Shown: piece by piece, positions 1-12,333 of the stretch
How positions within the stretch are numbered: position 1 is the stretch's first letter
Layout of the letters: the number at the start of each line of letters is the position of its first letter
Assembly (NCBI RefSeq): GCF_016820245.1
Contig: NZ_JAFCAR010000005.1
Coordinates: forward strand, 248,001 to 312,000
From: Jannaschia sp. Os4
GTDB lineage: Bacteria > Pseudomonadota > Alphaproteobacteria > Rhodobacterales > Rhodobacteraceae
Length of the DNA stretch: 64,000 nt
Direction: 5' to 3'
The notes under the pieces: generated by a model
Told to the model about the DNA's origin: nothing
The model's database searches: none
Seen by the model: only the letters and a program-made list of their open reading frames with translations
Program-made: the position numbers and the translations under genes

Positions 1-1237
1 TGTCGACGATGGGGCAGCGGCCCCCGCCCACGACCTCGTCGTACCAGTTCCACGCCTCGGGGTTGATCGGCTCGCCCACGGTGCCGAGGATGCGGATCGA
101 CGACAGGTCGTGCTTCTCGACCCACTCCGTCCCCTTGCCCATCAGCGCGCGGATGGCGGTGGGGGCGGTGTAGAACTGGTTTACCTTGTGCTTCTCGCAG
201 ACGGCCCAGAAGCGGCCCGCGTCCGGATAGGTGGGCACCCCCTCGAACATCAGCGTGGTCGCCCCGTTCGCGAGCGGGCCGTAGACGATGTAGCTGTGAC
301 CCGTCACCCAGCCCACGTCCGCCGTGCACCAGAACACCTCGCCGTCGCGGTAGTCGAACGTGTACTGGTGCGTCATCGAGGCATAGACGAGGTAGCCGCC
401 GGTCGTGTGGACCACGCCCTTGGGCATCCCCGTCGAGCCGGAGGTGTAGAGGATGAAGAGCGGGTCCTCGGCGGCCATCTCCTCGGGCTCGCAGACGTCC
501 GACACCTCCTGCTCCGCCTCGTGGAGCCAGACGTCGCGGCCCTCTACCATGTCTATGGCGCCGCCGGTGCGCTTGACGACCAGCATCTTGGGCGAGGTGG
601 ACGCCTTCTCCAGCGCCTTGTCGGCGTTGACCTTCAGCGGCGTGTTGCGGCCGCCGCGCGGGGCCTCGTCGGCGGTGACCACGACCTTCGCCTCGCAGCC
701 GTCCACGCGGGCGGCCAGCGCGTCCGACGAGAAGCCGCCGAACACCACCGAATGGATCGCGCCGATCCGCGCGCAGGCGAGCATCGCATAGGCCGCCTGC
801 GGGATCATCGGCATGTAGAGCACGACGCGGTCGCCCTTTCCGACGCCCATCCCCTTCAGGACGTTGGCGAACTTGCAGACATGCGCGTGCAGTTGCTGGT
901 AGGTGATGTGCTGCGCGCCGCCGCCGTCCACGCTGTCGGGGTCGTCCGGCTCGAAGATGATGGCGGTCTGGTCGCCCCGGTCCTTGAGGTGCCGGTCGAT
1001 GCAGTTGGCCGCCACGTTCAGCGTGCCGTCCCGGAACCACTCGATCGAGACGTTGCCCGGCGCGAAGGAGGTGTCCTTCACCTCCGAGTAGGGCTTGATC
1101 CAGTCGACCCGCTTCCCGTGCTCGCCCCAGAAGGCGGCGGGGTCCGCGACCGAGTCCGCGTACATCCGGTCGTAGGTCGCCTTGTCGGCATGGGCGGAGG
1201 AGGCGAGGTCGGCGGACGGGTGGCGCATGTCGGACAT
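1..1237 (-). CDS. acs: Acetyl-CoA synthetase, 3' part cut by the window edge
   Basis: This cytoplasmic AMP-forming enzyme activates acetate, and often propionate, to the acyl-CoA. The visible 412 codons are roughly the N-terminal two thirds of a family member of about 650 residues; the C-terminal lid domain lies outside the window. The adenylate-forming P-loop SGSTGMPKG sits near residue 265, followed by a [14 protein letters not shown] stretch and an [20 protein letters not shown] stretch, all typical of Acs. The ATG at 1237 is preceded by GGAGAC, a good ribosome binding site. It is the last visible gene of a leftward run that begins with the Liv-type importer genes, so uptake and activation may be co-expressed. 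No internal stop or frameshift is visible. Confidence 0.96.
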
Positions 1238-1265
1238 GGGATGTCTCCGGGTCGTGTCGTGTGGA

Positions 1266-1307
1266 GGGGGCCGTGCCCCCGGCGGGCCGGACCGCGCGCG
1301 GTCCGGC
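1266..1307. repeat. Two hairpins between livF and acs, one a perfect 22-bp palindrome
   Basis: Positions 1286-1307 form a perfect 22-bp palindrome centred on CGCGCG, with arms GCCGGACC and GGTCCGGC. A second hairpin lies at 1266-1280 (GGGGGC, loop CGT, GCCCCC). There is no T-run on either strand, so these are not canonical intrinsic terminators. They fill the 77-nt gap between livF and acs and could stabilise the upstream mRNA or uncouple acs expression from the importer. That role is inference. Confidence 0.6.
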
Positions 1308-11569: not shown

Positions 11570-11577
11570 GAGACCCC

Positions 11578-12333
11578 ATGCCCAGCTTCCGCGACCGCCT
11601 CCGGGGCGGCGAGTTCCTCGCCGGGACCTTCCTCAAGACGCCCTCCCACGTCGTGATCGAGATCATGGCCAAGGCCGGCCTCGACTTCGTCTGCATCGAC
11701 GCCGAGCACGCGCCGTGGGGCCGGGGCGAGACGGACGCGGCCCTCGCCGTCGCCCGCGCCCACGGCCTGCCGGTGCTGGTGCGCGTGGGCGCGGGCACGC
11801 CGGACGCGATCCTCGGCGCCTTGGACCTCGGCGCGACGGGGGTGGTCGTGCCGCATGTCGACACCGTGGAGAAGGCGCAAGCCGTTGCGGACGCGGCGCA
11901 TTTCGGGCGCGGCGGGCGGGGCTTCGCAGGCTCGACCCGTTGGGCGGGCTACGCGACGCGGCCGATGGGCGACGTGCTGGCGCAGGACGCGGAGACGGTG
12001 GTGATCGTCCAGATCGAGGAGCCGGAGGGCGTGGACGCGGCCGACGCCATCGCCGCCGTGGACGGGATCGACGCGCTCTTCGCGGGGCCCGCCGACCTGT
12101 CGGTGGGCTACGGCCACGCGAGCCTCGACAACGCGGACCTGCCCGAGGCGCTGTCCAAGATCGGCGCGGCGTGCCGGGCGCGGGGCAAGGGCTACGTGAC
12201 GTGGGTGCCCGACGCGGCGAAGGCGGCGGAGTGGCGGCGGCACGGGGTGACGTGCTTCTTCGTGGCCTCCGAGCACGCGTGGATGCTGCGCGGCGCGCGC
12301 GAGGTGGCCGAGGGCGTCCACGCCCTCGACTGA
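11578..12333 (+). CDS. HpcH/HpaI aldolase family protein
   Basis: This is a class II (metal-dependent) aldolase of the 4-hydroxy-2-oxoheptanedioate aldolase family, 251 residues with a TIM-barrel fold. Members cleave 2-oxo-4-hydroxy acids, usually releasing pyruvate. Visible family elements are FVCIDAEHAPWG near 37, GSTRWAGY near 119, the metal ligand glutamate in IVQIEEPEG near 144, and the aspartate in LFAGPADLSVGYG near 165. It starts 8 nt after the kinase stop with AGGAGA, so it is the last gene of the sensory operon; the link to the signal is unknown. The substrate is not predictable from sequence. Confidence 0.9.
   Translation: MPSFRDRLRGGEFLAGTFLKTPSHVVIEIMAKAGLDFVCIDAEHAPWGRGETDAALAVARAHGLPVLVRVGAGTPDAILGALDLGATGVVVPHVDTVEKAQAVADAAHFGRGGRGFAGSTRWAGYATRPMGDVLAQDAETVVIVQIEEPEGVDAADAIAAVDGIDALFAGPADLSVGYGHASLDNADLPEALSKIGAACRARGKGYVTWVPDAAKAAEWRRHGVTCFFVASEHAWMLRGAREVAEGVHALD

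Follow-up and report, generated by a model that had tools for sequence, protein, structure and literature searches.

A conserved gene block in Jannaschia sp. Os4 combining acs, a Liv-type importer, an ScfR-type regulator and an SLC5/STAC histidine kinase, with a candidate paired-box operator

Gene content of the block

The stretch of DNA analysed here (the window) has a length of 64 kb and covers bases 248001-312000 of one contig of Jannaschia sp. Os4, whose genome is 3.54 Mb. At its left end, two gene sets diverge from a gap of 227 nt that separates sbp on the minus strand from scfR on the plus strand. All named genes of this acs-liv-scfR-kinase block are present with open reading frames:

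1..1237, minus strand: acs, acetate--CoA ligase, 5' part (TIGR02188); remainder beyond the window edge
1315..2070, minus strand: livF-type ATPase
2159..2917, minus strand: livG-type ATPase
2920..4194, minus strand: livM-type permease (PF02653)
4198..5235, minus strand: livH-type permease (PF02653)
5299..6672, minus strand: sbp, periplasmic substrate-binding protein (PF13458, 227.5 bits)
6813-6819 and 6846-6852, plus strand: candidate ScfR operator, two CTGTAAA boxes, 33 bp start to start
6900..8165, plus strand: scfR, XRE/ScfRs regulator of 421 aa (HTH_3 and PF09856)
8200..8595, plus strand: stand-alone receiver, a response regulator without output domain, phospho-acceptor D63
8592..8897, plus strand: small two-TM protein, CbrX-like in position (TM helices judged by eye)
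8894..11569, plus strand: SLC5/STAC histidine kinase, non-hybrid, 891 aa
about 11578-12333, plus strand: HpcH/HpaI aldolase, behind the kinase gene

The acs gene is truncated by the window edge at base 1. The complete gene, present in the contig (L003:4285-6237), encodes a protein of 650 aa and is identified as acetyl-CoA synthetase by TIGR02188, with 1019.2 bits against a cut-off of 724.95. Across the left edge of the window, accB and accC adjoin acs on the same strand (L003:2261-4101); the names accB, accC and aat are used here as assigned by reading, without model scoring. On the plus strand, overlaps of 4 nt are found between the receiver gene and the small two-TM gene and between the latter and the kinase gene. 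As the scfR, receiver, small protein and kinase genes nearly touch or overlap, their co-expression is likely. An Rfam scan of window positions 1-16000 gave nothing at gathering scores.

Conservation of the block

At E<=1e-30, the kinase is found in 174 of 198 genomes sampled from Rhodobacteraceae. Gene order was compared in 80 named loci, the best 80 of 578 confirmed. The first-pass annotation of this DNA proposed a comparison of gene order across Rhodobacteraceae, and the order proved to be conserved: the receiver gene lies directly upstream of the kinase gene in 79 of the 80 loci, scfR lies upstream of this pair on the same strand in 72, and sbp and scfR are divergent in 57. The genes that the annotation had named (acs, liv, ScfR, receiver, small membrane protein and kinase) are all present, whereas the aldolase that it also included is not a conserved part. 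Its start lies 8 nt past the kinase stop codon; it is matched in only 3/80 named loci and was rejected as a block member, being a local neighbour only.

The acs gene is present at >=55% identity inside the fetched flank in 35/80 named loci, a count that excludes four weak matches (25-33%: L045, L064, L087 and L104). Among the 113 genomes with both genes listed, acs lies within 20 kb of the kinase gene in 56, on opposite strands in 56/56; the other 57 'unlinked' genomes include those with acs and kinase on different contigs, where linkage is unreadable. The match adjacent to livF is accB, with no acs in between, in 13 of the 80 named loci.

The block is not confined to Rhodobacteraceae. In a class-wide sample, the kinase is found at E 1e-150 in 39 of 289 genomes, 35 of them outside this family. 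From the 24 best kinase matches, 20 outside-family loci were taken (G230, G456, G393 and G332 were skipped, their genera being already chosen), and 15 of these 20, from 12 families, have the same order livFGMH-sbp|scfR-kinase; in one of the 15 (L362) the receiver was not matched. A Neorhizobium plasmid carries the block too. The block is conserved across marine and soil bacteria, far beyond the nearest relatives. No acs was seen behind livF outside the family, where at least 3.1 kb beyond livF is visible in 12 of the 15 blocks and L366, L373 and L374 have too little sequence past livF for acs to be judged. Because acs was not seen in these blocks, import, ScfR and kinase may form an old core, which acs joined in Rhodobacteraceae, possibly as a later client.

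Sister modules have also been observed. A Cupriavidus plasmid (L117:7625-16513) encodes a small TM protein, an SLC5-type kinase, a receiver-only protein, an exonuclease and a DUF294 protein, with acs (54%) at the end, and the same five types of protein are encoded on plasmid 1 of Paracoccus PD1222 (L114:7275-14175). No ScfR gene lies within either module. In addition, same-class kinase-receiver pairs stand beside acs (70%) and beside accB-accC-aat matches, without an scfR match, in L376 and L380. The sister module suggests a second link between kinase-receiver modules and acetate activation, with an output that need not be ScfR.

The SLC5/STAC kinase, the receiver and the small membrane protein

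A plain Pfam scan of the kinase at E 0.001 gave only HisKA and HATPase_c. Residues 8-603 match the SLC5-STAC structure of CbrA (10ED) with an E value of 2.6e-79, and the score against PF00474 is 23.6 bits, with a cut-off of 22.8. SLC5 and STAC are joined to HisKA and HATPase_c, and the protein is an SLC5/STAC histidine kinase. PAS and REC domains were looked for with domain models, and neither was found. The kinase is the sole SSF match in the genome, which leaves no match for an ActP.

Residues of the kinase and receiver were compared in an alignment of 81 rows (the window and 80 loci). In CbrA, the lysine K196 fills the sodium (Na2) site (PMC13022988). This residue corresponds to K198 of the window kinase and is invariant in 81/81 rows. 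The CbrA pocket residues Y51, W55, Y75 and F406 are likewise conserved in 81/81 rows, and the position of F71 holds F in 61 and Y in 20 of them. Three other positions differ from CbrA, with S53 and A56 each replaced by T (81 rows) and F248 by S (69) or A (12). Since K198 is invariant and most pocket residues are kept while S53, A56 and F248 have changed, the transporter domain is likely to be proton-linked and CbrA-like, with a different pocket.

The receiver is a protein of 131 aa in which D63 is invariant (81/81 rows). A domain scan finds no output domain, in agreement with the first-pass annotation. Between receiver and kinase, an ORF in the position of the small protein ends <=250 nt from the kinase ORF in 77/80 loci, and the two-TM pattern is conserved across loci. 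Searches of this protein against solved chains, CbrX included, gave no useful match. In Pfam, DUF6611 was matched at E<=1 by 12 of the 20 members compared, the lowest E value being 9.1e-5; this label was set aside, with 17.5 bits for the window copy and a cut-off of 27. The small protein CbrX has two helices and is encoded by a gene that overlaps cbrA; the cryo-EM structure shows it still attached to CbrA, and it is dispensable for growth on histidine (PMC13022988). By position and build, the small two-TM protein appears to parallel CbrX; sequence searches found no homology.

The ScfR-type regulator

The regulator contains an XRE helix-turn-helix (HTH_3, 46.4 bits, cut-off 23) and an ScfRs domain (PF09856, 38.5 bits, cut-off 24), the combination that marks ScfR/IsaR regulators, and it is the single PF09856 match in the genome. 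It scores below the RamB equivalog model NF038139 (77.2 vs 700 bits). An AlphaFold model of the protein has a mean pLDDT of 85.3, with values <50 in the last 34 residues, which include the CX2C part. The six best solved matches of this model are all MtPrpR chains (E 5.9e-6 to 4.1e-5), and the PrpR fold is recognized as a partial match, with TM scores by query of 0.29-0.33.

In PrpR, the ligands of the [4Fe-4S] cluster are C363 plus C447-X2-C-X4-C455, and CoA is locked in (PMC6765138). The matching residues of ScfR (C320, C388, C391 and C395) show no variation across 38 aligned rows. The motif CX2CX4CX2R is present in 74/76 ScfR loci, and no such motif occurs in L039 and L105; residues 388-398 of the window protein (positions 8061-8093) have CX2CX3C instead of the CX2CX4C of the 74/76 relatives. 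Because of its family membership and the matching cysteines, ScfR, a PrpR/RamB-type regulator, would be expected to carry acyl-CoA and a putative [4Fe-4S] cluster. In Paracoccus, Pden_1785 has been mentioned, with no function assigned, as a member of the ScfR network beside a two-component system (PMC10370305, the only one of the papers searched that names it). The neighbourhood XRE-receiver-hypothetical-kinase in P. ferrooxidans leads us to infer that Pden_1785 is an orthologue of the window scfR.

A candidate operator of paired YTGTAAA boxes

In the gap between sbp and scfR, a candidate operator is newly reported here. Of the 59 sbp|scfR gaps compared (the window and 58 loci), 46 contain the sequence TTTACAAA (either strand), against 1.8 expected. 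Usually, two direct YTGTAAA boxes lie 32 bp apart (33 in the window), and the profile of 40 sites reads TTTTTTGTAAA-N4-T-N2-ACA ... TTGTAAA. The window pair precedes the sbp start by about 141 bp and is the only one in the Jannaschia sp. Os4 genome, the reversed control giving 0. In the Neorhizobium gap, CTGTAAA and CTGTCAA are found 32 bp apart. A heptamer, GCAGAAA, is also conserved downstream of box 2 in 34/59 gaps (e.g., L095). A general palindrome in this downstream region was considered and rejected, an inverted repeat score of 7 being reached in 3/57 with a null of 1.3%.

Within the family, the strict pair is found at 170 sites in 124 of 198 genomes; the pair is short, and the reversed control still yields 75 sites, in 50 genomes. 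The assignment of sites to kinase and acs genes covers the listed sites, kinases and acs rows. Of the 170 sites, 150 are listed, and 71 of these are found no more than 20 kb from a listed kinase. All 71 share the orientation of the kinase, and 65 of them are located 2.0-2.55 kb upstream of it. The other 79 listed sites correspond to 78 stretches, which were fetched and sorted by target. The pair precedes an unlinked acs by 119-198 bp in 20 of them and sbp by 123-167 bp in 17, stands before scfR only in 3 and has no target gene in 38. All 37 acs and sbp sites are in the same orientation.

The acs upstream regions were also scored with a matrix built from 40 island sites only, with 590 shuffles as the null; an acs at a contig start (G053), without upstream sequence, was left out. 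Nineteen of the 59 unlinked acs upstreams score above all 590 shuffles, and 41 are above the 99th percentile of the shuffles, while 18 are not. A hand count gave 35/59 in which score, strand and distance agree together. Of the acs genes located behind livF, 0/26 exceed the shuffle maximum. The control consisted of ten acs upstreams from nine genomes without a kinase match, of which three are above the 99th percentile and only one, from G155, is right in strand and distance. The two sets compare at 35/59 vs 1/10 for score, strand and distance combined (p 0.005), 41/59 vs 3/10 for score alone (p 0.03) and 19/59 vs 1/10 for the strict score (p 0.26). The kinase-less genome G155 has an ScfR-type match as well as its well-placed pair, whereas G061 and G130 have an ScfR-type match and no well-placed pair.

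In the 80-bp Paracoccus probe that is bound by RamB, two boxes are separated by an 18-bp spacer and flanked by 17 bp at either end (PMC10370305). By arithmetic, this corresponds to 14-bp boxes at 32 bp start to start, the same as the island box spacing. The paired boxes are therefore put forward as a candidate ScfR operator; motif and spacing point to ScfR as the binder. Among loci without sbp seen beside scfR, the strict pair is present in 3/19, and in two of these exceptions (L040 and L105) sbp is in fact a neighbour of scfR, while the flank of the third (L045) ends 223 nt upstream. A purely autoregulatory reading of the boxes is weakened, because the pair is mostly lost in loci without a visible sbp and precedes unlinked acs. 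Because paired boxes stand before sbp and before many unlinked acs genes, ScfR probably runs a regulon of liv and acs. The first-pass annotation had placed acs and liv in one control unit with ScfR, and this proposal gains support from the shared boxes and the conserved order.

Metabolic setting and substrate of the importer

In water and soil, much carbon is exchanged in the form of acetate, and its consumers include Rhodobacteraceae. In the Jannaschia sp. Os4 genome, one Acs match is found at E<=1e-200. A SatP-type permease was sought in the genome and none was found. Crotonyl-CoA carboxylase/reductase (Ccr) is present over its cut-off, and isocitrate lyase, also sought in the genome, was not matched. 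Ccr without isocitrate lyase is an established sign of the ethylmalonyl-CoA route, which is therefore probably in use here. Since one Acs is present and the searches gave neither an ActP- nor a SatP-type permease, the importer of the block is a fair candidate for the entry of acetate or a related short acid, with diffusion as an alternative.

The importer and kinase could also serve another ligand, such as an amide, an amino acid, lactate or an aromatic acid, with acs as a client since the breakdown of the ligand releases acetate. Neither the urea (Urt) nor the Leu/Ile/Val models reached their cut-offs for the importer, and the best solved relatives of sbp include binders of urea, amides, amino acids and aromatic acids, none of them close (15-25% identity among the 50 listed). 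A choice of substrate from the sbp structure model was given up, as the relatives are too distant to decide. The core without acs outside the family also agrees with another ligand. In Phaeobacter, an L-lactate ABC importer has reportedly been recognized from mutant fitness; the window importer may be its counterpart, a lead for which a literature search found no supporting text. We regard such a ligand as rather unlikely, given that the paired box precedes many acs genes apart from the block and that the genome search found no ActP- or SatP-type permease.

A proposed circuit

The reading preferred here treats the block as a regulon for the uptake and activation of short-chain carboxylates, under ScfR and with input from the kinase and receiver, to which a rough probability of 0.6 is given on the basis of gene content, order and predicted sites. 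In this regulon, the SLC5/STAC kinase and its two-TM partner would, by comparison with CbrA and CrbS, sense a carboxylate outside the cell or in passage, probably with coupling to protons. The kinase would then phosphorylate the lone receiver, presumably at the invariant D63. Because the receiver is without a DNA-binding part, the phosphorylated form would most likely modulate ScfR by protein contact. ScfR, with acyl-CoA and a putative [4Fe-4S] cluster, would bind the YTGTAAA pairs located roughly 120-200 bp ahead of sbp and acs and switch on import by the Liv-type importer and activation by Acs, positive control being the presumed sign. The substrate would be acetate or a near relative. A more specific version, in which one ScfR weighs the substrate outside (through the kinase and lone receiver) against acyl-CoA inside, with an ABC importer for acetate or short monocarboxylates as the main client, is offered tentatively and carries less than even odds.

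The two parts may also form separate circuits in a shared neighbourhood. ScfR alone would run liv and acs from the acyl-CoA pool, and kinase and receiver would act elsewhere, for example in a phosphorelay through a phosphotransferase or on direct protein targets. The lack of an output domain in the receiver is compatible with this, as are the ScfR-less kinase-receiver modules of Paracoccus and Cupriavidus. In L040 and L063, scfR is located at the far side and not next to the receiver, small protein and kinase genes, and in 4/80 loci (L071, L085, L089 and L109, of which L085 is cut by the contig start) kinase and receiver occur without a full scfR. However, scfR is upstream of the receiver-kinase pair on the same strand in 72/80 loci and in 15/20 outside-family loci, and in the window these genes are almost contiguous or overlapping, as the small gene and the kinase gene are in most loci. 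Separate circuits are for these reasons considered unlikely. A plain CrbS/CrbR acetate system is highly improbable and was rejected on architecture: the kinase is of the same SLC5-STAC class and has acs as a neighbour, but no REC or PAS was found on it, the block holds no LuxR-type regulator and the receiver is only 131 aa.

The regulon under ScfR with kinase-receiver input consists of known parts in a new combination. In the literature searched, with subscription journals mostly outside reach, no description of a joint liv-acs-ScfR-kinase circuit was found. The proposal provides a specific, testable circuit for the switching of acs in Rhodobacteraceae and names ScfR as a possible partner for lone receivers beside SLC5/STAC kinases. 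In addition, it suggests that short carboxylates may enter by an ABC-type importer in a genome that gave no match to an ActP- or SatP-type permease.

Comparison with known systems

The importer resembles the Liv/HAAT importers in its five-part set and differs in that no urea or Leu/Ile/Val model cut-off is reached. The block resembles CrbS/CrbR (MxtR/ErdR) in that an SLC5/STAC histidine kinase is linked to acs. CrbS is a hybrid kinase with PAS and REC domains (PMC9100948), whereas the window kinase is non-hybrid, with no REC and no PAS found. Unlike CrbR, the receiver is without a LuxR output, and an ScfR protein takes the DNA-binding place. The analogy to CrbS/CrbR drawn in the first-pass annotation is thus kept for the kinase class, as seen in the 10ED match, and not for the REC and PAS domains or a LuxR-type regulator.

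Sinorhizobium fredii plasmid homologues, which we tentatively take to be RpuS, align with the window kinase over about residues 7-629 at 37%. RpuS/RpuR of Sinorhizobium is similar in having an SLC5/STAC kinase for a monocarboxylate, in this case pyruvate, and differs in that RpuS is hybrid and its partner is a LuxR-family regulator (PMC9100948). The likeness to CbrX-CbrA of Pseudomonas comprises the SLC5-STAC part over residues 8-603, the Na2-site lysine, most pocket residues and the overlapping small two-TM gene. In contrast to CbrA, the positions of S53, A56 and F248 differ, no PAS was found and no CbrB-type regulator is present in the block.

RamB of Paracoccus denitrificans and PrpR of Mycobacterium share with the window ScfR the XRE and ScfRs domains, four matching cysteines, with an X3 last step in the window copy, and, as a partial match, a PrpR-like fold, and RamB also shares paired boxes with identical start-to-start spacing, the sites in the block being predicted. 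The window ScfR falls under the RamB model (77.2 vs 700 bits). Unlike those of RamB and PrpR, the boxes of the block precede liv and acs rather than glyoxylate or methylcitrate genes, and ScfR is here accompanied by two-component genes.
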